This document shows positions 1,187-34,256 of a stretch of 34,256 nucleotides of DNA, one piece after another; positions within the stretch are counted from its first letter, which is position 1, and each line of letters starts with the position of its first letter. The position numbers and the translations under genes are program-made. Source of the DNA: a virus; the IMG/VR virus record IMGVR_UViG_3300013372_004188, positions 1 through 34,256 of that record; one strand, 5' to 3'. The notes under the pieces were generated by a model, which saw only the letters and a program-made list of their open reading frames with translations, searched no databases and was not told the origin of the DNA.

Positions 1187-1613
1187 CGTAGTAGCACTCG
1201 CAGGAAACGCCGTGGGAGATCCCACTGTTCGTTCGACAAATTCAGGCAAGAAGGTCGCAACCTTTCGCCTTGCTGTAAACAACCCACTTTCTGAAAAGGA
1301 AGTGCTTTTCATCGATGTTGACACTTGGGAAAAGCAAGCCGAATTCGTTGAAAAGTACGTCAAGAAGGGAAGTCTTATTTCAGTTGTTGGACGATTGAAG
1401 CAAGACACTTGGGAGAAGGATGGTCAAAAGCGTTCTTCTATTTCCGTAATTACCGAGCGTCTTAACTTCGTAAATTCTGGAAAGAAGAAGGACGGAGGGG
1501 AAGCTTCTGACGAAGACGCTTCCGCGCCACGCACCGCAAAGCCCGCAGCAAAAACTTATGCAAAGGCTGCTCCAAAGCCAGCTACTGATTCAGACGACGA
1601 TATTCCAATTTAA
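1179..1613 (+). CDS. ssb: single-stranded DNA-binding protein
   Basis: It coats single-stranded DNA during replication and recombination. Residues 1-105 form a bacterial-type SSB OB fold (MINVVALAGNAVGDPTVR, later KKVATFRLAVNN, VDTWEKQAEFVEKYVKKG and VVGRLKQDTWEKDGQ). Residues 106-138 are a low-complexity Ala/Lys/Pro linker. The protein ends in DDDIPI, close to the DDDIPF tip by which bacterial SSB recruits partner proteins, so interaction with host repair proteins is plausible. Codon use is richer in G+C (many AAG, GTC, CGC codons) than in its neighbours, as in the major tail gene, which suggests high expression. It overlaps the sigma-like gene by 8 bases. Confidence 0.93.
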   Translation: MINVVALAGNAVGDPTVRSTNSGKKVATFRLAVNNPLSEKEVLFIDVDTWEKQAEFVEKYVKKGSLISVVGRLKQDTWEKDGQKRSSISVITERLNFVNSGKKKDGGEASDEDASAPRTAKPAAKTYAKAAPKPATDSDDDIPI

Positions 1614-2713
1614 TGAAAATCTCCTTTGAAGCTCCCTTAAACCCAATTTCTTTTGGGAACGTTTCTTATAATTTTTTAAAAGAATTTTATAAAATCGCTC
1701 AAAAGGATTCTTCATTCCAGTTATTGATTCATCCAATTGCTGAAGTGAATTTAAGCGCGTTTGATAAAATAGAAAAAGATTTTTCTAATTGGATTCAATC
1801 GTGCCTTAATAATAGGTTTAAATTCTTATCAAAGGACACTACAAGTTTAAAGCTTTGGCATTTAAATGGAGCGCAAAATAGAATTTGCCCAAAACAAGTG
1901 CTTTATACTTTTTATGAACTTGACGAGCCGACAGATGTAGAACGCTGCATCGTCGGCTTACAAGATACAACAATTTTTTCGAGCGCAAATTCCGCTAGAA
2001 GCTTTGCTTTTTCCGGTCTTGGAAAAGTTTATTCTGTTCCATTAGGATTTGACAGCGATTTCTTTAAAACATCAAAAACATATCTTGAAGGTAAAACCCA
2101 TTTTATTTTAATGGGTAAGTTTGAAAAAAGAAAGCATACCGACAAAATCATCAAGACTTGGATAAAGAAATATGGAAACAATCCGAAATATCAACTTACC
2201 TGTTCTATTTTAAATCCTTTCCTGAATAAAGATTTGATGAAAAATATAATGGATGGATATAGGTCGTTGGCTTGGAACGTTAACTTTCTACCTTTTGTAA
2301 AAACAAACTCAGAAGTTAATGACATTTTAAACTCTGCCGACATTGATTTGAGCGGCCTATCTGGAGCAGAGGGTTGGGGACTGCCATCTTTTAATGCAAC
2401 ATGCTTGGGTAAATGGAGCATTGTACTTAATGCTACTAGTCATTTAGATTGGGCTACAAAAACAAATTCAATTCTAGTTGAACCTTCTGGTAAAATTCCA
2501 GCATACGATAACACTTTCTTTGTGAAAGGCGCGCCTTTTAATCAGGGAAATATTTATGATTTTACTGAAGATCAGGCTGTCGCGGCTATGGAAAAAGCCG
2601 TCAAACTTGTTGAAGATAAAAAAATAAACGAAGAAGGAATAAAATTGGGACAAACTTTCACTTACGAAAGAACCGTGGGACAAATTGTTTCAATTATAAA
2701 TCAACTTCCTTAA
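1613..2713 (+). CDS. GT4-type glycosyltransferase
   Basis: This is a GT-B fold glycosyltransferase of about normal length (366 residues). The C-terminal half has the nucleotide-sugar-binding signature: HFILMGKFEKRKHTDKII opens the second Rossmann domain, and GAEGWGLPSFNATCLGK, with E253 in the usual position, is the donor-binding motif of GT4 enzymes. The N-terminal acceptor domain is divergent (MKISFEAPLNPISFGNVSYN). It starts in a TAATG overlap with ssb, so it belongs to the dut-sigma-ssb operon and not to the fibre operons that hold the other glycosyltransferases. Acceptor and sugar are unknown; host envelope, phage DNA or virion protein are all possible. Confidence 0.8.
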   Translation: MKISFEAPLNPISFGNVSYNFLKEFYKIAQKDSSFQLLIHPIAEVNLSAFDKIEKDFSNWIQSCLNNRFKFLSKDTTSLKLWHLNGAQNRICPKQVLYTFYELDEPTDVERCIVGLQDTTIFSSANSARSFAFSGLGKVYSVPLGFDSDFFKTSKTYLEGKTHFILMGKFEKRKHTDKIIKTWIKKYGNNPKYQLTCSILNPFLNKDLMKNIMDGYRSLAWNVNFLPFVKTNSEVNDILNSADIDLSGLSGAEGWGLPSFNATCLGKWSIVLNATSHLDWATKTNSILVEPSGKIPAYDNTFFVKGAPFNQGNIYDFTEDQAVAAMEKAVKLVEDKKINEEGIKLGQTFTYERTVGQIVSIINQLP

Positions 2714-3214: not shown

Positions 3215-3598
3215 ATGCCACTTTACACTTATCAGAACCCACAGACGGGAGAAACAATTGACCTTATTCAAACAATGAACGAGGAACACTCATATACTGA
3301 CAAAAACGGGCTTCAGTGGAAAAGGGTATTCCAAGTGCCTAACGCCGCTGTAGACTCGCAAATAGACGCTAATAACCCACTGGCATTCGTGGACGCAACA
3401 AGGAACAAGAAAGGTACATACGGCGACCTTTTAGACAAAAGCGCTGAACTTAGCGAAAAGAGGGCCAAAACATACGGAGGAGAAGACCCTATTAAGCAAA
3501 AGTTTTTAAATGATTATTCAAAAAAGACGAAGGGTAAAAAGCACCCATCGTTATTGAAAAAGACCTATGAGTCAAAAAATGTTAAAGTAGATTATTAA
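3215..3598 (+). CDS. FmdB-like phage protein lacking the zinc-binding cysteines
   Basis: The N-terminus (MPLYTYQNPQTGETIDLIQT) matches the MP-x-Y-x-Y...G start of FmdB-type regulatory proteins, a fold often found in aquatic phage genomes. The usual CxxC pairs are replaced and the 127-residue protein has no cysteine, so it cannot form the zinc ribbon. The C-terminal half is lysine-rich and probably helical (GDLLDKSAELSEKRAKTYGG), ending in a basic tail. The gene follows the terminator after Hsp20, its AT-rich leader has no Shine-Dalgarno, and its end overlaps the oppositely oriented glycosyltransferase gene by 17 bases. Function is unknown. Confidence 0.7.
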   Translation: MPLYTYQNPQTGETIDLIQTMNEEHSYTDKNGLQWKRVFQVPNAAVDSQIDANNPLAFVDATRNKKGTYGDLLDKSAELSEKRAKTYGGEDPIKQKFLNDYSKKTKGKKHPSLLKKTYESKNVKVDY

Positions 3599-5705
3599 TT
3601 TTTTCCATTACCATTTCTGGCGTAATGGATCTTGTGCATTCAAAATTCTTATTTTCTGGACACCATAGCCAATTGTTTTTGTCAAATGTATGCTTTTCGT
3701 TATTCCAGCATCCGTTACATACTTTTTCATTTATAATTCTATAAGGCGTTTCGAATTCTGCAAATGGCTTGCTGAAGCCGCTAATTAAAACTACAGGCTT
3801 ATTCAAAGCCCAAGCAAGCCAAGACAAACCAGATCCCAAGCCTATAAAGAATTTTGAGTTATGAATTTGGGACATTCTTAACTCAAGGGGAAAATCTCCG
3901 GTTTTATCAACTGCGCCTTTGGGAATTGGATTCATTATCGCATTGCCAAATAACGAATACCTATCAATGCACCAAGCCTCATATCCCTTTTTATTTAAAA
4001 GCTCAATCAGCTTTTCCCACCCATTCGGATTATTCCAATATTTGCATTGTGCCGTGCTTTGAGTTGCTATACAAACATATTTTTTATTTGTTTGACCTAC
4101 ATTTGGGAATGATAACTTGGGCCTGTCTTCGCGATGATCTAGTTCTAAAATATAACTTGGAACATGATTTAGTTTTGTTAAACGAGGATTGACAACAGAT
4201 TTATCAATCCAATTTTCCATAAAATAACCTACGTCATAAACGGCATAATAGCCATTATTTGAATTTTGTTCTGAAATAAAATTTATATTTTTATAATTTG
4301 GCTTTAAAGATCTGAGCAAATCTTGATTGTATAAAGTGCAATCTATTTGACATTCATGCTTTTTTTGGAACCTATCTATAACAGGGACATACGCCAACAA
4401 ATCACCTAAGCTTCCTGTTTCTACATTTATTTTTACCTTTTTGCCTTTTAAGTTTAATTTTTCAGAAAAAATCAACATTCTACCATTAGGTGTTTTTTCA
4501 TAAACATTCACTTTCCAGTTTACAAAATAACTTCGTTTTGGTCTTGACCACATATTATTGTTTATTGTTGTCGCATATATTAATTCGCCAGAAGAGTCAT
4601 CTATAAATTCAATATCATATGTTTTCTTTTGAGAGCCAATAACTTCAGCTTTAACTCCTTGGCGAAAATCTATAATAACTTTATTATCTTCAGTATTTAT
4701 TTCTGTGTCCCGATAAGACTGAATAAATCTATTTGCAAAAATCTGCTCTCTATATTCACTGTACAAATTGACCAAATCATTTACTCTATTTGAATAAGAA
4801 TTTTTTTCAGCGTTCGCCAAAGCTTTTTCTTTAAAACTTGAGTAATTATTTACTACTGTTTTAATTCCATTAATTGCTGATTCCAAATTTCTTTCTGTAA
4901 CGCACATACCATCGTATTGTTTTTCTTCAAAAGTCCCAACAACTGGCAATCCACAAGACATAGCTTCAAGTAAAGTTAAATTTGGATGACCCGCTTCTAA
5001 TTCCGAAAAATGCAGAAAAATATCGTGCTTACCATAAAGCTCTATGAGTTGAGTTTCGCTCAAATCAAAAAATTTAGTCAGTTTTAAATAATTGTTTATT
5101 TCGCTTGGCAAGGTAGAAAAAAAGTTTTCATTATTTTTGGGACCAGCTATAGTTATGGGCAAGTCAAGTTTCATAGCTGCCTCAATAGCAATTTTGAAAC
5201 CCTTTCTATCTGCATTTGGATTACCAGCATACCCGTTATTCGCAACGCACAACAAACTGACACCATCTTTTAAAATATTAAAATTTAATTTGTCTTTTGT
5301 TGGAGCAAAAACATCCGTATTTACAGCGTGAGAAAAATATCTTAATTTTTTACTTCCAAAATATTCCACGAAAAACTTGCATGGAGATGTTGATATTACG
5401 CTATTTTCTATGGCTTTTAAATTTTCTTTAAAGCAGTGAGAATCTTTTCCGTACAAGAAAGCATGGTGATCGTGAATGGTAAAAATATATGGAATTTCTC
5501 TTTCAAAGCACATGTTTGCTAGATTAGCGACATGAACATGAACTACTTGACTATCATCATAGTTAACATCATTTAAATATTTAATCTCGCTTTTAATTCC
5601 ATTTTTTTCAAGCTGTAAGTGATAATCCCAAATAATTTTTTCTACAGCGCCCCACCCATTAGGAGGTATAGCCAACAGGCCAGGAGTTATATTTATAACT
5701 TTCAT
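3582..5705 (-). CDS. bifunctional glycosyltransferase: GT4 domain fused to TibC/Aah-like GT9 protein O-heptosyltransferase domain
   Basis: Residues 1-325 are a GT4 glycosyltransferase: glycine-rich start with PPNGWGAVE (14-22) and donor motif EAGHPNLTLLEAMSCGLPVV (237-256). Residues about 343-425 are a beta-rich domain (NMWSRPKRSYFVNWKVNVY), followed from about 426 by a GT9-type Rossmann domain (VETGSLGDLLAYVPVIDRF; IGLGSGLSWLAWALNKPVVL). The C-terminus carries C663-x2-C666, C682 and C690 in the context CNGCW...WCP...FEC. This arrangement matches the bacterial autotransporter heptosyltransferases (Aah/TibC), in which four cysteines hold iron. Those enzymes put heptose on serines of beta-solenoid adhesins. 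The gene is the last of the fibre/oxygenase/glycosyltransferase operon and starts in an ATGA overlap. The GT9 assignment is strong by motif; the exact sugar and protein target are inference. Confidence 0.82.
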   Translation of the reverse strand: MKVINITPGLLAIPPNGWGAVEKIIWDYHLQLEKNGIKSEIKYLNDVNYDDSQVVHVHVANLANMCFEREIPYIFTIHDHHAFLYGKDSHCFKENLKAIENSVISTSPCKFFVEYFGSKKLRYFSHAVNTDVFAPTKDKLNFNILKDGVSLLCVANNGYAGNPNADRKGFKIAIEAAMKLDLPITIAGPKNNENFFSTLPSEINNYLKLTKFFDLSETQLIELYGKHDIFLHFSELEAGHPNLTLLEAMSCGLPVVGTFEEKQYDGMCVTERNLESAINGIKTVVNNYSSFKEKALANAEKNSYSNRVNDLVNLYSEYREQIFANRFIQSYRDTEINTEDNKVIIDFRQGVKAEVIGSQKKTYDIEFIDDSSGELIYATTINNNMWSRPKRSYFVNWKVNVYEKTPNGRMLIFSEKLNLKGKKVKINVETGSLGDLLAYVPVIDRFQKKHECQIDCTLYNQDLLRSLKPNYKNINFISEQNSNNGYYAVYDVGYFMENWIDKSVVNPRLTKLNHVPSYILELDHREDRPKLSFPNVGQTNKKYVCIATQSTAQCKYWNNPNGWEKLIELLNKKGYEAWCIDRYSLFGNAIMNPIPKGAVDKTGDFPLELRMSQIHNSKFFIGLGSGLSWLAWALNKPVVLISGFSKPFAEFETPYRIINEKVCNGCWNNEKHTFDKNNWLWCPENKNFECTRSITPEMVMEKINNLL

Positions 5706-7657
5706 ATTTTTTTAACTAAACCAAGTTCACTTATTTTAGATAAATACTCTTGGTCTACAAGTATTTTTTTAGTATAAATTTCTTTTTCTTCTCTTACTTT
5801 TAGTTCAACATTTATGGGGTTATCTCTTTTTTCGATGATTTTGATAAATGTTTGCCTACCAGTTATTTGGACATTTTGCGTCTCTTCATTTAATGTTAAT
5901 TGTGCAATTCTATTATCAATAGAATTTGAAGTATGAAAAACTATAGCTAATGCATTATGATTTTCAACTGGTAAAACCGCAAAATACTCTACTTGAGAAT
6001 TCGAATCTATCTCGCACTCCTTCACATCTTCATTGTATTCGCTCATCGAAGATTTATAAACATTCTCTTCGCTTTTTAAATTATGAAAATATATATTTTC
6101 TAACCCATTAGATTCAGAGCCTATTTTCTGCATCCAATTGTTATATTCTAATTGATCTTTTATCAATGGAAATTTATTAGCGAATAATTCTGTTTTTATT
6201 GCATGAAAAACTGTTTTAAAAGTACTCCCTTCTTGACATGGCTCTTCAACAAAATAAGCATCATTTTTATTTAATTTTGACAAAACTTTAGATAGAAACT
6301 TTTTATCTTTTAACAAAAAATCAAAATTCATGCATATAGCTTTTTTATATCCAAGCTTTTTTGCAAAGTTGATTCCATTGTAATAGTTTGTATATACAGC
6401 TGGACCATGATAGATATCGTTATCCGTTTTATCTAAACATAATTGTATTTGATAATTATGATCTCCTTCCCTTGCATGCCCAGTGAATCTTTTGTAAAAT
6501 GTATGTTTAGTCAAAATATTATTTTTATCAACAACACAGTAATCAGAAACATTTTGCAAAACCTCTGGAACTGAACAGTGCGAGGTTAATATAACAGGAG
6601 CGTCACTAATTTGCTTTAAATGGCTAATGCATTTTTCAGTTATTTCTGTTATTGAATTATTTACGGGATAAGACGATAAGACAAAAGCATAATCATTAAA
6701 TTTTGTTATATTTAATTTATCTAAAATTTTACTTTCATTTTCTTTTAGATTGTCAAAGTTTAAATATTCTACATTGTGAAATTTGTCGTACATTCCCAAA
6801 TAAACTGGCAAATTATAAATTAAACTTGGAATATTAAAAGAAATCGCCTCTCTAATAACAAGTGGACTCGTTTCTTTATTATTTTCCGACCCTCTTGAAG
6901 TAAAAAGAAAAAGATCTGCGGCTTGATAAAAATTCTCCACATCTTTTCTTTCGTTCCACCAAGTGCAATTGCTTGGCCACTCTTTCATTAAAGGCTCCCA
7001 ATAAAACCTAAAATTATCAGCCTGATTTCCAATAAAATGAAATTGGATTGGATAATTTATAAGACTTTTTGCGTATTCAATTATTTCAGCTTGGTTTTTC
7101 CTAGGAGTAAAAAGACCAACATTAACAACATGTTTTTTAGAAGGATCTAACCCTAATGCTTTCAGAGCTTGTTCTCTTGGCTTTCTAATTTTTATTGATA
7201 TTGGGTATTCGTGAACTTCAGATGGAATCTTTAAAGACTCTACGTTTCTTTTTTGAAATTCGCTTACGAACGTAAACTTGTCTGGAAAAAACCTTTTTGA
7301 AGATGGATCAAAGCTGCTATCGTGAGAAGTTTCAACTATAGTATATTTTCTTTCTTTGGAGTATATTTTCTCGGCCAAAGCATTGTCCATAAAGTATTCT
7401 GGCATCTCTTCAAGATGCAAAACATCTGGATGTATTTGATTTATAATTTTTAGTAAATCATTTTTATCTTCTCTTAAAGTAAAAAATTTATCTTTTAGCA
7501 AATCGATGATTTGATTTTTTTGTACTACAAACCCACCGTGATCAGCATATTCAACGCAATATATTTCACATTCTTTTTTTAATATCTGTATTTTCTTTAA
7601 AAGAAATTGAGGAAGCCCACCCGTTGATAGATGAGGAGCAATGTAAAGAATTTTCAT
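5702..7657 (-). CDS. multidomain glycosyltransferase (GT4 plus C-terminal transferase-like and beta domains)
   Basis: Residues 1-345 are a GT4 enzyme: MKILYIAPHLSTGGLPQFL start, NVGLFTPRKNQAEIIEYAK at 179-197, and KETSPLVIREAISFNIPSLI (261-280), the EX7E-type donor-binding region. Residues about 350-545 form a second domain (PVILTSHCSVPEVLQNVSDY; HGPAVYTNYYNGINFAKKLG; ICMNFDFLL) that looks like an additional sugar-transferase-type module, though I cannot name its family. Residues 550-651 are predicted beta-rich. The start is placed at 7657 and not at the in-frame 7732, because 7657 begins exactly at the fold and has AGGAGA about 11 bases upstream, while 7732 lies inside the previous gene. Acceptor unknown. 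Confidence 0.8.
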   Translation of the reverse strand: MKILYIAPHLSTGGLPQFLLKKIQILKKECEIYCVEYADHGGFVVQKNQIIDLLKDKFFTLREDKNDLLKIINQIHPDVLHLEEMPEYFMDNALAEKIYSKERKYTIVETSHDSSFDPSSKRFFPDKFTFVSEFQKRNVESLKIPSEVHEYPISIKIRKPREQALKALGLDPSKKHVVNVGLFTPRKNQAEIIEYAKSLINYPIQFHFIGNQADNFRFYWEPLMKEWPSNCTWWNERKDVENFYQAADLFLFTSRGSENNKETSPLVIREAISFNIPSLIYNLPVYLGMYDKFHNVEYLNFDNLKENESKILDKLNITKFNDYAFVLSSYPVNNSITEITEKCISHLKQISDAPVILTSHCSVPEVLQNVSDYCVVDKNNILTKHTFYKRFTGHAREGDHNYQIQLCLDKTDNDIYHGPAVYTNYYNGINFAKKLGYKKAICMNFDFLLKDKKFLSKVLSKLNKNDAYFVEEPCQEGSTFKTVFHAIKTELFANKFPLIKDQLEYNNWMQKIGSESNGLENIYFHNLKSEENVYKSSMSEYNEDVKECEIDSNSQVEYFAVLPVENHNALAIVFHTSNSIDNRIAQLTLNEETQNVQITGRQTFIKIIEKRDNPINVELKVREEKEIYTKKILVDQEYLSKISELGLVKKI

Positions 7658-7658
7658 T

Positions 7659-8411
7659 TTAAAAAATCTCTCCTGTTTTAGAAGAATACTTTTTCTCTGG
7701 ATTAAAATTTTTAAATCTATTCCATCCAGCATCTAATTCAGATGATACTCTTTTGCCTTGAGAAAATTCTCCAAAATGATTTATTATATTTTTACCATTT
7801 TTATTTTTTAATAAAGCTGTATTTAAATTATATTTTTTATTTAAATACTCAGAAATACAAAATTCTGAAGGATACATTTTCATTTCTTGCAAAATAGGCT
7901 CTCTGCATATCCAAGACGGATAAAGAGAGAACATCATCCAAAAATATTTAGATTCTATTTCGTATCTAAATTCATTAAAAATTATATCTTCTTTTTTCGG
8001 TCCAATTTCTTCTGTTTCACTTTTGTACCAATTGTTTCTTTTTAATTGTACCTGTCTTAATTTTTTATTACTTTCTAAAATTTGAATTAATAAATTTAAA
8101 TCTATTTTTTCTAGTAATTCTACGTCATCTTCTTGATGTAAGATATAATCATAGTTAAAATCATTAACATAATCAAAAAAATTTTGCCAGTTTTTTGTTA
8201 TACCTAAATTTTCTTTATTTAAAATAACAGTATTAATTTTATATTTTTTGCATGTCTCTTTTATGAGATCATCGTTTCTATTAAACGGGTAATCATCTAT
8301 TAATACTGTGTCTACGTTTAAATTACCATAATTTAAACTTTTATTAGAACTTAATGTTTTTTCTAAATATTCTAACCTATTACTAGAAAAAACTACATGA
8401 CATATTTTCAT
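7659..8411 (-). CDS. GT-A fold (GT2-like) glycosyltransferase
   Basis: The 250-residue protein begins with the usual GT2 pattern (MKICHVVFSSNRLEYLEKTL, then VDTVLIDD at 33-40). It has NLGITKNWQNFFDYV (68-82) and the metal-binding acidic motif LHQEDDVEL (91-99, with E94-D95-D96 in the DxD position). It is short for the family and ends soon after the catalytic domain (FWMMFSLYPSWICREPIL), with no membrane segment, so it is probably soluble. It starts in a TAATG overlap with the oxygenase gene and is followed after one base by the next glycosyltransferase, so the four genes are almost certainly co-expressed. Confidence 0.82.
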   Translation of the reverse strand: MKICHVVFSSNRLEYLEKTLSSNKSLNYGNLNVDTVLIDDYPFNRNDDLIKETCKKYKINTVILNKENLGITKNWQNFFDYVNDFNYDYILHQEDDVELLEKIDLNLLIQILESNKKLRQVQLKRNNWYKSETEEIGPKKEDIIFNEFRYEIESKYFWMMFSLYPSWICREPILQEMKMYPSEFCISEYLNKKYNLNTALLKNKNGKNIINHFGEFSQGKRVSSELDAGWNRFKNFNPEKKYSSKTGEIF

Positions 8412-8965
8412 TAAAATTCTGTATCAAAGAAAAAAAGCTGAAAAAGTCTTCCATCATTGTTATCTTTGCCAAAATAATCTAACGAAGCATGAAATAGATC
8501 TCCTCTATAAAGAACTAATCTATTAAATTTGTTGCCAATTACATCTACAAGATCCCATTTTGTATAATCGTAAGCTTCTGTACCTTTCCCTTTGGGGATC
8601 TCAAAAATTGAAGAAGCTGCTGTTTCTTTGTGTCTGAATAGACCAGTTCCTCCAGTATGAGGAGCATTTGGGGTTAAATAACAAACTCCAGCCCATTTAT
8701 TTCCATTATCAGCGTGTATCCAAGTTCTATCCTTGGCGGTAGCTATTTGAAAACTTCCACTGTATTTATCTGAAAATCCAATAAATTTTCCGCTAAAAGG
8801 CTTAACGAATTCTTGTATTGTGTTTTTAACGCCATCTAATAAAAACTCTTTTGTTCTATTGCCAGGGAAATTGCCCTTAACTTCAAAAGACTGAGATAAC
8901 GCAAAATTTCTTACGCTATCTGGATTATTGTAAAAATCATCAACTACTATAATATTGGTTCTCAC
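8411..8965 (-). CDS. 2-oxoglutarate/Fe(II)-type oxygenase (DUF6445-like)
   Basis: This is probably a non-haem iron dioxygenase that hydroxylates a substrate using 2-oxoglutarate. The iron triad is visible as H84-A-D86 (TWIHADNGNKWAGVCYLTP) and H159 (YRGDLFHAS); R173 in DGRLFQLFFF is the expected 2-oxoglutarate-binding arginine. GGTGLFRHKET (105-115) and FNRLVLYRG (147-155) match the family core. The start codon is GTG, and no in-frame ATG near it would keep the N-terminus. A consensus-like promoter overlaps the start. The gene lies between a collagen-like fibre gene and three glycosyltransferases, so a virion protein or a nucleotide sugar are the natural candidate substrates; neither is proven. 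Confidence 0.85.
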   Translation of the reverse strand: MRTNIIVVDDFYNNPDSVRNFALSQSFEVKGNFPGNRTKEFLLDGVKNTIQEFVKPFSGKFIGFSDKYSGSFQIATAKDRTWIHADNGNKWAGVCYLTPNAPHTGGTGLFRHKETAASSIFEIPKGKGTEAYDYTKWDLVDVIGNKFNRLVLYRGDLFHASLDYFGKDNNDGRLFQLFFFDTEF

Positions 8966-8967
8966 AA

Positions 8968-8998
8968 ATTATAGTATACTTATTTTACCATTTGTCAA
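8968..8998 (-). promoter_or_regulatory. sigma-70-like promoter ahead of oxygenase/glycosyltransferase genes
   Basis: Read on the minus strand, a perfect TTGACA (8998-8993) and a perfect TATAAT (8973-8968) are separated by 19 bases, including the palindrome AGTATACT. The spacer is longer than the ideal 17. The -10 box ends only 2 bases before the GTG start, so a transcript from here would have almost no leader or start inside the gene. It could allow separate early expression of the modification genes, or be a chance match in AT-rich DNA. Confidence 0.4.
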
Positions 8999-9200
8999 TT
9001 GGACATTTTGCGGCTTGTAATTTGGTTTTTATTTTCATGAAGCACTTACATTTATCACATTGATAAAATTCTTTTTTAAAAAATTCACAATTTTCACATA
9101 TAAAAAATCTTTCATTTGCTTCTTTTGCCTCAGTTAAAACTTTACCATCTTTAATTAATTGATAAATTGTATTTGCAGTTGTTTTTGCTAAATCACTCAT
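8985..9200 (-). CDS. small zinc-ribbon protein (DUF6171-like)
   Basis: The 71-residue protein has a helical N-terminus and a compact metal-binding half with cysteines at 35, 38, 48, 51, 53 and 66 (ICENCEFF, CDKCKCFM, AKCPIDKW). The same pattern, CExCEFF...CxxCxCFM..K..L..A.CPxDKW, occurs in the larger protein at 27889-28683, and the short helix before it is also shared. It is encoded 3 bases after the collagen-like fibre gene, just as the larger copy follows the cysteine-rich protein gene. Zinc binding is inferred from the cysteine spacing. A role as fibre-assembly helper or regulator is only a guess. Confidence 0.75.
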   Translation of the reverse strand: MSDLAKTTANTIYQLIKDGKVLTEAKEANERFFICENCEFFKKEFYQCDKCKCFMKIKTKLQAAKCPIDKW

Positions 9201-9203
9201 TTT

Positions 9204-10688
9204 TTATGATCCAAAGCATAATACGTCAGTGCTATTATAATTGATATATCTAAGATAAACTCCCGATGATCCACCATAATTACCGCATTCAGGATAACCA
9301 AGTATTGTACCAGAAACATCTCCAGATGGGCCTTGTGGGCCTTGTGCGCCTTGTGCGCCTTGTGCGCCTTGTGCGCCTTGTGCGCCTTGTGCGCCTTGTG
9401 GACCTTGTGGTCCTTGTACGCCTTGCGCACCTTGCGCGCCTTGTGGACCTTGCGCGCCTTGTGGGCCTTGTGGGCCATCGGGGCCTTGCGGGCCTTGTGG
9501 ACCAGGAACAGTAGAATCTAAACCTTGTGGACCTTGCGCGCCTTGTGGGCCATCATTACCTTGTGGGCCTTGCGCGCCTTGTGGGCCATCATTACCTTGT
9601 GGGCCTTGCGCGCCTTGTGGGCCATCATTACCTTGTGGGCCTTGCGCGCCTTGTGGGCCTTGCGCGCCTTGCGCACCCTGCGCGCCTTGTGGGCCTTGCG
9701 CGCCTTGTGGGCCATCATTACCTTGTGGGCCTTGCGCGCCTTGCGCACCCTGCGCGCCTTGTGGGCCTTGCGCGCCTTGTGGGCCATCATTACCTTGTGG
9801 GCCTTGTGCGCCTTGTGGACCTTGTGGTCCTTGCGCGCCTTGCGCGCCTTGCGCGCCTTGTGGGCCTTGTGGGCCTTGTGGGCCATCATTACCTTGTGGG
9901 CCTTGCGCGCCTTGTGGGCCTTGTGGGCCATCATTACCTTGTGGACCTTGCGCGCCTTGTGGGCCTTGCGCGCCTTGTGGGCCTTGCGCGCCTTGTGGGC
10001 CATCATTACCTTGTGGGCCTTGCGCGCCAATATTTCCAGTTCTAAAAAACTCTATTACACAGGCTTCTGTATTTGATGGCGCATTACCACTAACATATGT
10101 TACATTATATTGCACATAAGACCCTTGATCAGTAACGCTATCAAGTTGAAATATACTTAAACTATTATCTGTATTGCTATTACTTTTAATTACAATATAT
10201 CCCTTGACCGCACTTGTGCTGTCGTCCCAAGATAATAAATAAGAAGATACATTTACATTCTCCCATTCAGAATCATGAATATATATTTGAGTTACTGATC
10301 CAATTGAATTATTATTGAACCTAAATAATCCATAATCTATACCAGATGGGCTTGTATTTGTTTCAAATTCGTATTTAAGACCACCTTTATCTCCTTGTAT
10401 TCCTTGTGGACCTTGTGGGCCATCATTACCTTGTGGGCCTTGCGCGCCTTGTGGGCCTTGCGCGCCTTGTGGGCCTTGTGGGCCTTGCGCGCCTTGCGCA
10501 CCCTGCGCGCCTTGTGGGCCTTGCTCGCCTTGTGGGCCTTGCGCGCCTTGTGGGCCTTGTGGACCTTGCGCACCCGAAGTAATTTCATTTTTTGTAGCAA
10601 ATATATCTCCTAAATCAGTATTGCTTGGATAGCTTCCACTACTTCCATTACTTCCGCCAGTGACTTTATAATTTACTACTACAGGCAT
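9204..10688 (-). CDS. collagen-like fibre protein
   Basis: This is probably a trimeric virion fibre. Three Gly-X-Y blocks are visible: residues 39-101 (21 triplets), 221-388 (56) and 396-455 (20), almost all GPQ, GAQ or GND. They surround a roughly 115-residue globular domain (104-218, [20 protein letters not shown] onward), and a 38-residue tail with two cysteines ([16 protein letters not shown]) ends the protein. Proline always sits in the X position and glutamine dominates Y; only one lysine falls in the repeats (GDK, 99-101). The N-terminus ([20 protein letters not shown]) probably attaches to the tail. The gene follows the S74 fibre gene by 3 bases and precedes a zinc ribbon, an oxygenase and glycosyltransferases. 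Confidence 0.88.
9324..10574. repeat. DNA repeats encoding collagen-like triplets
   Basis: Three blocks (9324-9503, 9525-10028 and 10386-10574) consist of 9-base units coding for Gly-X-Gln. Many are arranged in a 36-base higher-order unit coding for [12 protein letters not shown]. Copies are nearly identical even at third codon positions, pointing to recent expansion or gene conversion. Such tracts can change length by slippage or recombination, and short-read assemblies may collapse them. Confidence 0.9.
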
Positions 10689-10691
10689 AAG

Positions 10692-13232
10692 TTATTTTAT
10701 TTTATTTTTTAATCTATCAACTTCAAGTGACAACTCTTTTACAGCTTGAATTAAAATTGGAGTTAATTTTCCATAATCAATTCCAACAACTTCACCTTTA
10801 TTATTAAATCCAACAAGGTTAGGTATAACTTCATTTACTTCTTCAGCAATTAAACCAATATCATTTTTTAAATCTTTGGTTTTCCAGTCAAAAATTACGG
10901 GCCTCAATTTAGAGATTATTTCTTTGCCATTTTTTAAATTTTTAATCTTTTTCTTGAAACGCTTCGAAGAAGTTGATGTGTAAGTTTCTGCCGTAACAGT
11001 ACTTTCTACAACTAATTTTCCTGCACCAGCATTTGGAGCAGCGCTTCCTCCTCCTGGTGCTGTCCCAGACGATTGTTCAATAATTCTTACAGTCCCATCA
11101 AGCTCAATTATCATTCTTGGCACGCCTTGAAAAGCGCCACCGGCAGAGGTTTGCTTATAGCTTGTCGAAAATAGTATTGATCCGTCAGCTGGACCATTAA
11201 ATCCAGCCCCTTCTTTATAGGCTGCTTGCAAGCTTAATCTTCCATTGCCATCATCATTTCCATCAGTATCATATTCTGACCCTATAAAGTCTATTTGCGC
11301 GCCATATTGTGTGCCGTTTCCATCTCCTCCATTTATAGTTAAAATTGAATTTTTGTTCGCGTATCTTATTCCGAATCCAGAAGATATTGTTATTCCTGCC
11401 CCGCTTGTGCTGTCACTTGCAGAACGCGCTTCTAATGTTCCTCCTATAACTAACGATGTTCCATTCCAATATAAATAATTTTGATTTAAACCTAAACCAT
11501 CAGTTCCAGTTTTGCCTATAAAAAATCTATACTGACTAGAAGCGTATCCTAAAAAGAAGCCGTTTCCTGATGTTGTGAATTTACCTGCGCCAGAGGAATC
11601 CCATTCTAGTCCGCTTGTTATTCTTCCCGTTGTTCCAACAGATAAGCCTAAGTTGCCAACCGATACTGCTGTAGTGGCGCTTCCAAAGAAACCAGAAGTT
11701 GCTCTTATTTCTCCCTTGATAGTCAAACTATTTGAAGATGTTATCCATTTTAAAAATCCATAATCAGCCCCAGATAAATCTCCAATTCCAAATCTTGAAC
11801 TAGTTCCCCCTTCTAACCAAAATCCTATTCCAGAAGTAAACGATGTAGCTCCGCTACTTTTAAATACGCCATTGCTATCTAAAGTAATTGTTTGAGAAGT
11901 GATTGATCCAGTTCTAATCTTGTCAGCATTTAACTCTGAAATTTTTGCATTTGTGATCGCTGCGTTTTGGATATAGGCGCTTCCAATAACCGCATTGGCT
12001 AGCGCATTCCAAGCCAAGTCGTGAATGCCTTGAGCTACACCAGCGTCATTTTTTGCATTTGTCGCAATCATGAAGTGTCCGTCAGCTAAGGCTGGATTAG
12101 TGTCACTTGTTTGATATGTAGTTCCACCAGTCCAATAAACAAACTGTAAATTAGTACTTCCAGAGCTAATAGAATAAGATGCGCCGCCATAAACTAAAGT
12201 ATGCGCATTCCAAGAAATGTATCCAGCGGATGGAGAGTTGTCGGTCCACACGTCTGCTTTTAAAACAACAGTGTTAGTGAACATTTTTGTCGCATCTACC
12301 GCAAATGACGTTATATCAGTAGCAGCAACAAGCCCAGGAACAATCGGAAAAGTAGAAGGTGTTGCCTGAGTAGTGCTTTCGTTGCCAGAATAATCTATTG
12401 AAGTTAGCCAGTAGTAATAACTCGTACCCTGTGATGTAGAAGTATCAGTAAACGATGTTGCGTAAACAGTTGCTTTTAAAGTCGCTGTTGAAAAATTATT
12501 TACTGTATTTCTATATATTTTAACCCCAGCTAAATCAGTTGCGGTGTCATTTATCCAATCCAAAAATACAGACTTTATCGCTGAATTAGCTGTAACACTG
12601 GTTGGTGGACCAGGAGGAGTAGTGTCTCTAGCCGATAGTATAACCGTTCCATTAGTAGGTCCAGTTAAAGCAGTATAGGAAGACCTATTGCCTGATTTAT
12701 CAATGGCGGCAACTCTAACTTCATAATAAGTGTTTGCCCTAACGTCCCATTGCATTTTTTGCCCTTGAGGTGCTGGAGCAACATTAACTACTGCATCAAA
12801 AATCTGCGCCGTTCCTCCGTAAGATGTCGTGGTCGCTTCTCCATTACCATTTGCAGAGGTAGTTGCCGACAAATATCCTCCAGCAAAAACTGGTGTTCCG
12901 CTAGCTCTTCTCAATGACCAACTATAAGAAGCTAAATCAGACTCAGAATTTGCCGACACTTCCGCTTTTATATAAACCTTTTCTGTACCGTCCCTATCTC
13001 TTTCCGTTACGGTAGTTACTGTTGGAAGGGCTGGCGTATTTGGAGCTATAGTATCAGCGGACCCAACTCCAGCAGCTTGCAATGTCGTGACTACGCCACG
13101 ACTGTTCAACATCTTGTTTCTAGTTATTTTTTTTGTTTTCTTTGAAGAATTTTGAAAAAACAAAAACTCATCCTTGTCATCAAGCACTTCTACTGATTCA
13201 AGATCATCTATTCTTTTGCTTCCTGTAGACAT
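10692..13232 (-). CDS. tail fibre protein with FN3 domains and C-terminal S74 intramolecular chaperone
   Basis: This is a probable tail-tip fibre. Residues about 62-193 and 204-295 are fibronectin-III-like (second copy: TTPPGPPTSVTANSAIKSVF, then YYYWLTSIDYSGNES). A helical stretch, AAITNAKISELNADKIRTGS (424-443), resembles the segment in gpJ-type central fibre proteins. Residues 450-750 are Gly/Ser/Thr-rich beta repeats. The last 92 residues are a Peptidase_S74 domain: SSKRFKKKI gives the predicted Ser755/Lys760 self-cleavage dyad, followed by GLIAEEVNEVIPNLV, IDYGKLTPILIQAVKEL and a coiled-coil end. In this family the domain trimerises the fibre and then cuts itself off. The start follows an AT-only leader. 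Confidence 0.88.
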   Translation of the reverse strand: MSTGSKRIDDLESVEVLDDKDEFLFFQNSSKKTKKITRNKMLNSRGVVTTLQAAGVGSADTIAPNTPALPTVTTVTERDRDGTEKVYIKAEVSANSESDLASYSWSLRRASGTPVFAGGYLSATTSANGNGEATTTSYGGTAQIFDAVVNVAPAPQGQKMQWDVRANTYYEVRVAAIDKSGNRSSYTALTGPTNGTVILSARDTTPPGPPTSVTANSAIKSVFLDWINDTATDLAGVKIYRNTVNNFSTATLKATVYATSFTDTSTSQGTSYYYWLTSIDYSGNESTTQATPSTFPIVPGLVAATDITSFAVDATKMFTNTVVLKADVWTDNSPSAGYISWNAHTLVYGGASYSISSGSTNLQFVYWTGGTTYQTSDTNPALADGHFMIATNAKNDAGVAQGIHDLAWNALANAVIGSAYIQNAAITNAKISELNADKIRTGSITSQTITLDSNGVFKSSGATSFTSGIGFWLEGGTSSRFGIGDLSGADYGFLKWITSSNSLTIKGEIRATSGFFGSATTAVSVGNLGLSVGTTGRITSGLEWDSSGAGKFTTSGNGFFLGYASSQYRFFIGKTGTDGLGLNQNYLYWNGTSLVIGGTLEARSASDSTSGAGITISSGFGIRYANKNSILTINGGDGNGTQYGAQIDFIGSEYDTDGNDDGNGRLSLQAAYKEGAGFNGPADGSILFSTSYKQTSAGGAFQGVPRMIIELDGTVRIIEQSSGTAPGGGSAAPNAGAGKLVVESTVTAETYTSTSSKRFKKKIKNLKNGKEIISKLRPVIFDWKTKDLKNDIGLIAEEVNEVIPNLVGFNNKGEVVGIDYGKLTPILIQAVKELSLEVDRLKNKIK

Positions 13233-29659: not shown

Positions 29660-30364
29660 TTATAAATCCTTATTATAACCAAATAAATCAAAATCTTGTT
29701 TGTAAAAATTATAAACTAAATCTTTAGTTTCTGCGTCGTAATATTGAGCTATATTTTTGTCATAATTTCCTTCGCGAGCATGAATGTTCATAATATTTAT
29801 ATTAGCTCTTTGTCTGCAAAAATCCAAACAATCTTGCATTTCTGTTTCTAATTTATATATTTTATCAATAGAGTTTAAAGTACCGTTTTCATCTAGTAAA
29901 AAACTGTTTTGAGTTTCTAAATGCCCGTCAAACCTTTGAATTCTTTGAAGTTTTGGCAAATTTAATTGAGTTTGGACAAAAAGCGGAAACGTTGGACATT
30001 CTTCTCTTATATTAGTTAATAAATGATTATATTGAGCAATATACAATGCAAAAAAATATTCTGATATTAATCTATGATAAGGATTTCTAACTATAGAAAA
30101 TTTAAATGCATTGTTGAAAAAATTTGAATCAAGTAATTTTTTCAATTCTATCAAAGTGAAATGCTGCATATTTTTTGCAGAGCAAATCAATCTTTCTTCT
30201 TCTGAAAAATTATTAAAAATTAAATCTTTAATATTTTCTTCAGTTTTTCTATTTGTTGTATAGAAATTATTTTTGCGAGACATGTCCAACATTTTTTCAA
30301 CAGAAGTTCCTCCTGTTTTGGGAATGTGAATAAAAATAACATTAAAATTTTTACTTATAGGCAT
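29660..30364 (-). CDS. sulfotransferase (carbohydrate sulfotransferase-like)
   Basis: It probably transfers sulfate from PAPS to a sugar. The PAPS 5'-phosphosulfate loop HIPKTGGTS is at residues 13-21 and the 3'-phosphate motif FSIVRNPYHRLISEY at 89-103, both almost ideal for the Sulfotransfer_2 type; H68 may be the conserved histidine of the family. The C-terminus (QYYDAETKDLVYNFYKQDFD) has the usual family helix ending in FGY. There is no signal or membrane segment, so it acts in the host cytoplasm. Its stop lies 2 bases before the cysteine-rich gene and its start overlaps the GT8 gene by 10 bases, so the substrate is likely a glycan made by that enzyme. Confidence 0.87.
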   Translation of the reverse strand: MPISKNFNVIFIHIPKTGGTSVEKMLDMSRKNNFYTTNRKTEENIKDLIFNNFSEEERLICSAKNMQHFTLIELKKLLDSNFFNNAFKFSIVRNPYHRLISEYFFALYIAQYNHLLTNIREECPTFPLFVQTQLNLPKLQRIQRFDGHLETQNSFLLDENGTLNSIDKIYKLETEMQDCLDFCRQRANINIMNIHAREGNYDKNIAQYYDAETKDLVYNFYKQDFDLFGYNKDL

Positions 30365-31401
30365 AAATTATTTTTATTTAAAAAATTTTCTATATAAACT
30401 TTTTTACTACTGGCGAACAAAGCTAATCCAATAAAATGAATAAGATAGTAACTATCATTCAAAGTTTCAACCGCATTTTTCTCTGGTTCGATTTCTTCGT
30501 TTTTTTCTACAGTGTATAAAAATTTACCGTTGTGTTTTCTAACATATCCAATAGGAGGAATATTTTCTGCGGGACCATTTAAATTAATTCGTTTAATTGG
30601 TCCAATGTTAATAAATCTACATATATTATTAATGATAGTTCTTTCACATAAATTATTAAATATGAAATAAAAATTCATAAAAGACTGCTCAAAAAAATAC
30701 TCTCCAGGCCAAACTTCACTTAGCCAAATCACATTAGAAAAATGAGCGTTCATTCTTTTTGAATTACAAAAATAAAATTGACCAGCATTAAATGGGGTAG
30801 GCTTTGTCGCTTCTATAAAATCAGACTGCTCTTGCGTCATATAATCCAAATTCCAAAAAACTGCCCTATGACTCCAAACTTTATAATTTAAAGATGGATT
30901 GCAAGCTACCTGTAAATATTCTGGGTTATATTCAGCCGCAAAAATATGATTTAAGTTTGCAGTAGAAATTATATCGCAATCTAAAAACAAGATATTTTTA
31001 TATTCATTTATTTTTGCATATTTGAATATTTTTAATTTTTTCATTGACGCGGCAACTCCATCAACTGGTCTAGGCAAAAGAAAAAAATCAAAATTGAAAT
31101 TTTGTAAAATTTGGAAACTTTTTATTTTATCTACAAAGCTTTCTTCAGTTATAAATAATAAATCAAATGTTTTAAACTCAGCAAATTTATGAATGCTTTT
31201 TAAGCAAATTTCTAATAAGTCTAAATAAGATTCTTCTTTAAATATTGTAAAATAAACTAAATTTTTTTCTCCAATTGGAGTTGAAGATTCATTCAAAGCT
31301 TTTGAAATTTTATTTTTCAAATGTTGCAAAATTAATTCTTTATCAGAATTTGAATTTGCGTATATTGATACATTTTGACGAATTAAATGATTAATTGCCA
31401 T
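30355..31401 (-). CDS. GT8-like glycosyltransferase
   Basis: The 348-residue protein has the GT-A/GT8 layout. NILFLDCDII (137-146) contains the DxD (D141, D143) that binds the metal and nucleotide-sugar. KPTPFNAGQFYFCNSKRM holds the GT8-type FNAG. HFIGLALF near the C-terminus corresponds to the HFxG motif. The first 45 residues are an extra helical part. Because retaining GT8 enzymes include glycogenin-like and LPS glucosyl/galactosyltransferases, the sugar cannot be told. It lies between a fibre-associated small protein and the sulfotransferase, overlapping both by about 10 bases. Confidence 0.8.
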   Translation of the reverse strand: MAINHLIRQNVSIYANSNSDKELILQHLKNKISKALNESSTPIGEKNLVYFTIFKEESYLDLLEICLKSIHKFAEFKTFDLLFITEESFVDKIKSFQILQNFNFDFFLLPRPVDGVAASMKKLKIFKYAKINEYKNILFLDCDIISTANLNHIFAAEYNPEYLQVACNPSLNYKVWSHRAVFWNLDYMTQEQSDFIEATKPTPFNAGQFYFCNSKRMNAHFSNVIWLSEVWPGEYFFEQSFMNFYFIFNNLCERTIINNICRFINIGPIKRINLNGPAENIPPIGYVRKHNGKFLYTVEKNEEIEPEKNAVETLNDSYYLIHFIGLALFASSKKVYIENFLNKNNLCL

Positions 31402-33575: not shown

Positions 33576-34256
33576 TTACGATCCCATGAACAAGAATGGG
33601 TGAAGGTTAGCTATATCGCCACCATCAACTTTGAGATTCTTTGCGCTTATAGAAACTGTTGTTCCATCGTCAGTTACAGTAGAGTTAGCAAGGTTTGATG
33701 CAGGAGAACCAAATTTAGATAAGGTGTTTGTAGTAGCTGGGCTGAAACTGATGCTTAATCCGCTAGTTCCATTTACTGCAATTGTGCTTGTTCCACTTGT
33801 GCCGCCAGCGCCGCTTGTGCCGTTTGTACCGCCAGCACCGCTTGTGCCGCTTGCTCCAGTTGTACCACTAGATGCGCCGCTTGTGCCACTAGATCCGTTT
33901 GAACCGCTTGCGCCGCTTGTACGACTTGTACCTGATGTCCCACTTGTTGCGCCGCTTGTGCCGCTAGAGCCGTTAGTGCCACTTATGCCACTTGTGCCAT
34001 TTGCACCGCTTGTGCCGTTTGTGGTGCCGCTTACGCCGCTTGTGCCGCTTGTGCCGTTACGGCCACTTGTGCCGTTTGCGCCACTAGTGCCACTAGAAGC
34101 TGCATTAACACCGCTTGTTCCACTAGCGCCATTTATACCGGACGTACCATTTGCACCGCTTGTGCCACTTGTAACGCCTGTGCTTACGCCGGATGTACCA
34201 CTTGTACCATTGCGGCCACTTGTACCATCTGCACCGTTTACGCCACTTGTTGTTCC
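33576..34256 (-). CDS. Gly-Thr-Ser repeat fibre protein (5' end outside window)
   Basis: This open frame runs without a stop from the window edge to TAA at 33576 (227 codons) and has no start inside the window. The first about 155 codons encode Gly-X-Y-like triplets dominated by GTS, GAN, GAS and GTN (for example GTSGANGTSGISGTNGSSGT). The last about 65 residues are a non-repeat C-terminal domain (SISFSPATTNTLSKFGSPAS, then STVTDDGTTVSISAKNLKVD, ending NLHPFLFMGS). A shorter open frame in another phase at 33773-33982 is a shadow of the repeat. It is probably another trimeric fibre. The start, length and N-terminal domain are unknown. Confidence 0.8.
   Translation of the reverse strand, partial: GTTSGVNGADGTSGRNGTSGTSGVSTGVTSGTSGANGTSGINGASGTSGVNAASSGTSGANGTSGRNGTSGTSGVSGTTNGTSGANGTSGISGTNGSSGTSGATSGTSGTSRTSGASGSNGSSGTSGASSGTTGASGTSGAGGTNGTSGAGGTSGTSTIAVNGTSGLSISFSPATTNTLSKFGSPASNLANSTVTDDGTTVSISAKNLKVDGGDIANLHPFLFMGS

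Follow-up and report, generated by a model that had tools for sequence, protein, structure and literature searches.

Genes at the locus

The window, by which we mean the whole stretch of DNA analyzed (34,256 nucleotides; IMG/VR virus record IMGVR_UViG_3300013372_004188), carries a minus-strand run of genes for a tape measure protein, minor tail proteins, an S74 tail fiber, a collagen-like fiber, a DUF6445 protein, a GT2 protein and a GT4 protein (Table 1). P0001 is the last gene of this run, in agreement with an earlier note on the sequence which had described it as closing an operon of phage fiber genes. Its open reading frame encodes 707 amino acids, and the plus-strand reading of the same stretch is full of stop codons. 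Both halves of the protein are under purifying selection (dN/dS of ∼0.05 against the relative in contig L005), and the reading frame is therefore not due to chance. The start codon of P0001 overlaps the stop codon of the preceding GT4 gene, P0002 (ATGA), which suggests that the two may be translationally coupled, and a relative of the N-terminal half of P0002 is present in the loci of 46 of 58 P0001 relatives. Elsewhere, the window encodes a sulfotransferase, a protein with weak likeness to GT8 and a further GT4-like protein, bringing the total for this phage to at least five glycosyltransferase-like genes and one sulfotransferase.

Table 1. Coordinates of features in the window
Feature	Coordinates	Strand	Basis
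P0001: GT4 (residues 1-327) and TibC/Aah-type protein O-heptosyltransferase (340-707)	3582..5705	-	Pfam, NCBIfam, phmmer, model
P0001, GT4 half	4725..5705	-	Fold match; separate gene in L076 (45% identity) and L220 (43%)
P0001, TibC half: beta domain, GT-B catalytic domain, D435, T551, K555, R610, W629, four-cysteine iron-finger motif	3585..4688	-	Profile and alignment
Iron-finger cysteines C663, C666, C682, C690	3636..3719	-	Alignment to TibC
P0002: GT4 and further C-terminal domain	5702..7732	-	Pfam; stop overlaps P0001 start
P0003: family 2 glycosyltransferase, cassette partner of P0004	7659..8411	-	Pfam, neighborhood
P0004: DUF6445, prolyl-hydroxylase-like 2OG-Fe(II) oxygenase fold	8411..8965	-	Pfam, model
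P0005: collagen-like fiber, GPQ/GAQ shaft, few Ser/Thr (47 of 494)	9204..10688	-	Sequence, Pfam
P0006: tail fiber with Peptidase_S74 chaperone domain	10692..13232	-	Pfam
Collagen-like GTSG protein, truncated at contig end; Ser+Thr 40%	33576..34256	-	Motif density
GT4-like protein	1613..2713	+	
Sulfotransferase	29660..30364	-	
GT8-like protein (weak)	30355..31401	-	

Domain architecture and predicted active site

Profile and structure comparisons agree on the composition of P0001. Residues 340 to 705 match hepto_Aah_TibC (TIGR04414, NCBIfam) with 360 bits against a cutoff of 200 (E value, 1.3e-107), residues 325 to 706 align with TibC (4rap; phmmer E value, 1.1e-79), and the GT9 family PF01075 is found above cutoff at residues 531 to 656. 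In the N-terminal half, PF00534 (Glycos_transf_1) and PF13692 (Glyco_trans_1_4) are both above cutoff at residues 159 to 292 (37.8 and 37.2 bits). An AlphaFold2 model was built from 26 viral sequences (mean pLDDT, 81; pTM, 0.52); given this pTM, no use was made of the predicted arrangement of the two halves. In the model, residues 340 to 707 superimpose on residues 21 to 387 of TibC (4rb4) with a Z score of 38.1 and a root mean square deviation of 2.8 Å over 359 residues, covering the beta domain and the GT-B catalytic domain, and residues 1 to 327 have a GT-B fold resembling that of GT4 enzymes, e.g., BshA and MshA (Z of ∼25). The fusion of a GT4 domain to a TibC/Aah-like O-heptosyltransferase, which had been read from the sequence together with a likeness of residues 335 to 707 to TibC, is thus borne out, and the family identity of both parts of P0001 is virtually certain.

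In TibC, D110 is the candidate base, R286 contacts adenine, and W305, T226 and K230 contact sugar and phosphate (PMC4358343). By alignment, D110, T226, K230, R286 and W305 correspond to D435, T551, K555, R610 and W629 of P0001. Among 218 sequences (59 fused, 80 from split-gene loci and 79 bacterial), the equivalents of D110, K230 and W305 do not vary, including in 139/139 phage sequences, the equivalent of R286 is retained in 216 (137 of 139 phage sequences), and that of T226 is always T or S. The four-cysteine pattern of the proposed metal site, C663-x2-C666...C682...C690, is likewise in place: these cysteines align with the TibC iron ligands C339, C342, C358 and C370, in a predicted site within a loop of pLDDT ∼50, and all four are invariant in the 139 phage sequences. 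Of the residues that make contacts in the TibC dodecamer, F368 is matched in the alignment by F688 of P0001, while the thumb residue V266 aligns with an isoleucine and F265 with a gap.

Relatives in phages and bacteria

The full two-domain protein was found in 58 further viral contigs, at 43 to 97% identity. Scanning viral contigs with both halves of P0001 gave at least 586 relatives of the TibC half and 396 of the GT4 half, and among the best 80 of the ≥586 TibC loci, a GT4 gene is adjacent to the TibC gene in 58 and nearby in 17 more. In the split-gene locus L076, the gene order is GTSG collagen-like protein, FkbM-GT4 protein, GT4, a 212-amino-acid gene, TibC, and tail sheath, with 45% identity of the GT4 protein to P0001 residues 1 to 320 and 39% identity of the TibC protein to residues 336 to 707. 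Another, L220, encodes a GT4 protein (43%), a P0004 relative and a TibC protein (33%; TIGR04414, 232 bits), with a GSSG-rich protein on the opposite strand; identities to the P0001 halves are therefore 39 to 45% in L076 and 33 to 43% in L220. Proteins of the type found in L018 have an extra C-terminal FkbM domain behind TibC, and FkbM also occurs elsewhere within the operon. Since GT4 and TibC are neighbors in one branch and fused in another, the two domains belong together, and most simply they would act in succession on one substrate.

A first scan of genome assemblies, with patterns from the full-length alignment, returned no bacterial relative and was rerun with the C-terminal half, which has relatives at 495 loci. 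The GT4 half is absent from the best 80 of these 495 loci (open reading frames of 379 to 547 amino acids), and 398 Pseudomonadota genomes yielded matches to the C-terminal half only and no fusion. Among 396 genomes of Flavobacteriales, the order of the bin that contains L076, two had matches, with the domains as separate stretches in both. L076, one of the best 80 loci, is itself a phage contig with tail sheath genes inside a Winogradskyella bin; contig L389 of genome G149 is a second phage-like contig in a Flavobacteriales bin, judged by its matching genes only. The suggestion in the earlier note that a direct GT4-GT9 fusion is unusual therefore holds for bacteria but not for phages, given the 58 further contigs.

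A maximum-likelihood tree places the phage TibC sequences in one group (support, 100/100), apart from 78 bacterial sequences and with the single exception of L114, which falls inside. Long branches join in this tree, and positions within the phage clade were therefore not used. L114 (positions 5795 to 7030 and 7962 to 9101) is an Acidiferrobacterales contig from a bacterial bin and has a long branch; its TibC lies within the phage group, and GSSG-repeat open reading frames are found near it. Terminases of the P0001 relatives show similarity to their counterparts in Microcystis phage Mel-JY01 (52%) and in Flavobacterium phages (50%).

Collagen-like fibers as candidate acceptors

Linkage between TibC and collagen-like proteins was assessed in the 43 split-gene loci for which 4.8 kb or more of upstream sequence was available, by counting open reading frames rich in GTSG-like repeats; a strict GXY test missed many GTSG proteins, and a motif density test was used instead. 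A GTSG protein lies within ∼5 kb in 39 of the 43 loci and, after clustering of TibC at 80% identity, in 18 of 21 clusters, compared with 2 of 34 control loci chosen by P0004 and 1 of 71 bacterial TibC loci. Serine and threonine together make up 42 to 47% of six of the seven GTSG proteins examined and 25% of the seventh, which is only partly repeat. When the selection was reversed and contigs were chosen by a GTSG DNA pattern, TIGR04414 was found in 16 of 45 viral contigs versus 0 of 41 chosen by P0004 (Fisher P = 8e-6, a guide only, as the control contigs are somewhat shorter and the loci are related and not independent). The other 29 of the 45 GTSG contigs, all of them fragments, show no TibC. 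A search with NCBIfam models for the strand-loop-strand repeat of Aah/TibC acceptors found none in the tail and fiber proteins tested.

The earlier note had also proposed that the phage may glycosylate its own virion proteins. Linkage to GTSG fibers in many relatives and the reverse selection support this indirectly, and O-glycosylation of some virion protein is probable. In the fused branch, a GTSG protein was found in only 4 of 55 loci within the available flank (L002, L043, L044 and L053), and in the window as a fragment at the contig end; the acceptor in this branch may therefore be another protein. By composition, the GTSG fragment would be the best acceptor candidate in the window.

In L002, a close relative, the GTSG fiber gene is immediately ahead of the P0002-P0001 pair. 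Its product (positions 6063 to 6764) occupies the gene position of the collagen-like P0005 of the window, and both have the same N terminus (30 residues). The shafts are GPQGAQ in P0005 and GTSG in L002, i.e., a shaft exchange between close relatives. Between the fiber gene and P0002, the window has a DUF6171 gene, P0004 and P0003, and L002 lacks all three. The P0004 model (pLDDT, 72) has a fold like that of prolyl hydroxylases and other 2OG oxygenases (OGFOD1, PHD2 and P4H; best E value, 4e-5), with H84, D86, H159 and R173 invariant; a profile search on the sequence gave no convincing solved relative. In PHROGs, the P0004 (DUF6445) family is labeled “minor coat protein.” Genes for P0004 and P0003-like GT2 proteins are neighbors in 63 of 80 viral loci, and a scan with P0003 alone returned only a single close viral relative. 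The pair forms a conserved cassette, putatively of a hydroxylase and a glycosyltransferase. A tie between this cassette and collagen-like fibers was considered and dropped, as it was found in 3 of 80 loci. Hydroxylation by P0004 could provide acceptors on a shaft without serine and threonine, but this reading stays speculative because the cassette mostly occurs without collagen-like genes nearby.

Proposed mechanism and alternatives

We predict that P0001 is a bifunctional protein O-glycosyltransferase. In a first step, its TibC half would link a sugar to serine or threonine side chains of a repetitive phage fiber protein, using an ADP-activated donor that is most likely ADP-heptose drawn from the host. 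The GT4 half, being part of the same polypeptide, would then attach a second sugar supplied as a nucleotide sugar. Elongation and capping of the glycan could fall to the neighboring GT4 and GT2 genes, joined in relatives by genes for FkbM methyltransferases. The acceptors are most likely the GTSG collagen-like fiber proteins; on present evidence, a GTSG-type acceptor combined with this order of steps is somewhat favored.

The same role could be played with a donor other than heptose, e.g., a hexose, as hosts may lack ADP-heptose; this would alter nothing in the proposal except the sugar. Searches for gmhA in 40 virus records gave no hit, and in 23 records rfaE domain II did not score above cutoff (one weak match below cutoff in G019); the phages would therefore have to rely on the host for ADP-heptose. 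P300, which sets TibC stereoselectivity, is replaced by G624 in P0001 and is G, S or P in relatives. Nevertheless, bacterial members vary at this position too (S in 45, G in 26, P in 6 and A in 2), and the contacts to sugar and phosphate are retained, along with R610, the predicted adenine contact. Heptose is thus rather likely to be the sugar, judging from these residues, and a different donor is a less likely option, though one that carries some weight.

Alternatively, the acceptor might be another virion protein (the tail sheath, an Ig-like fiber or another fiber), and the GTSG linkage might merely reflect coresidence in the tail gene region. A tail sheath gene follows TibC in L076 and in the four split-gene loci without a GTSG protein, a gene of 607 to 684 amino acids precedes the P0002-P0001 pair in L003, L004 and L006 (with Ig domains in L003 and L006), and the collagen-like fiber nearest to P0001 in the window is of the GPQ type, almost without serine and threonine. 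Against this, GTSG proteins are enriched under both directions of selection, while they are found in 2 of 34 phage loci chosen by P0004, and we consider this explanation unlikely.

P0001 could also modify the host surface (an autotransporter, lipopolysaccharide or exopolysaccharide), blocking superinfection or changing the serotype. In bacteria, enzymes of this family modify autotransporters of the cell that makes them (PMC4358343), and serotype-changing phage glycosyltransferases are mentioned in PMC12619734. However, P0001 and its neighbors are embedded in the tail gene region, the substrate of TibC is a polypeptide prior to its secretion and not lipopolysaccharide, and no gene typical of a serotype conversion cassette was recognized within the gene run, which makes a host target improbable. 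Finally, although many phage glycosyltransferases act on modified DNA bases, as is generally known and as PMC12619734 notes, such a role for P0001 is very improbable, because its TibC half with the iron finger is a protein substrate module (PMC4358343), the gene is located with fiber genes, and no base-modifying enzyme was recognized in the gene run.

Returning to glycosylation of the phage's own fibers, it is conceivable, and we suggest it only tentatively, that self-glycosylation is widespread in aquatic phages. A TibC-type initiator, either fused to a GT4 extender or encoded together with one and often accompanied by FkbM, would coat GTSG fibers with capped O-glycans; for a shaft whose serine and threonine have been lost, as in the window, a prolyl-hydroxylase-like enzyme may supply hydroxyls. 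If so, glycosylated virions would be a common feature of aquatic phages, produced by an enzyme family so far associated with bacterial adhesins, which phages and bacteria would then share, and there would be a possible reason for the existence of GTSG collagen-like phage proteins rich in serine and threonine. For testing virion glycosylation, the analysis supplies specific genes, candidate acceptors and catalytic residues.

Comparison with known systems

The closest characterized relatives are the BAHT family (TibC and Aah; TIGR04414; PMC4358343). P0001 residues 340 to 707 match over the full length, with ∼38% identity to TibC, and share the catalytic base, the donor contacts, the four-cysteine iron finger and the N-terminal beta domain. 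In contrast to that family, P0001 has an N-terminal GT4 domain and is encoded by a phage among tail genes, with no autotransporter recognized; the phage sequences form a clade of their own, with L114 alone inside it, and the thumb-tip F265 of TibC is not kept. Residues 1 to 327 share the GT-B fold of GT4 enzymes (BshA, MshA, HepE and PglA; Z of ∼23 to 26) at a sequence identity of only 11 to 20%.

Searches of the literature collection used here found no paper on a phage TibC, on UniProt entry A0A6J5SVC1, or on a collagen-like fiber with a hydroxylase and a glycosyltransferase. Mycobacteriophage virion glycosylation uses other enzymes and differs from the P0001 system in its hosts and virion proteins. 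It nevertheless offers an earlier example of phage capsid and tail proteins that carry sugars (Freeman et al. 2023, as cited in PMC12619734).

The family name is already in the databases for a phage protein: BFVD carries A0A6J5SVC1, “Glycosyltransferase Aah/TibC” of an uncultured Caudovirales phage, which likewise has a TibC-like domain but is 924 amino acids long and 31% identical to P0001 over 378 columns. WWT39291.1 of Microcystis phage Mel-JY01 resembles P0001 in having a C-terminal TibC domain (TIGR04414, 317 bits) and an N-terminal GT4 domain, and it matches the C-terminal part of P0002 weakly over a short stretch, but it is 1,226 amino acids long, with a different GT4 domain and extra middle domains. 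This gene (L147, positions 4750 to 8430) is annotated as “methyltransferase FkbM,” whereas Pfam and NCBIfam give GT4 and TibC; the annotation hides a TibC family member. Carbamoyltransferase and DegT-type aminotransferase genes lie directly behind the fused GT4-TibC gene in some relatives (L039, 12139 to 13779; L009, 12115 to 13245), fitting a further decoration of the sugar.
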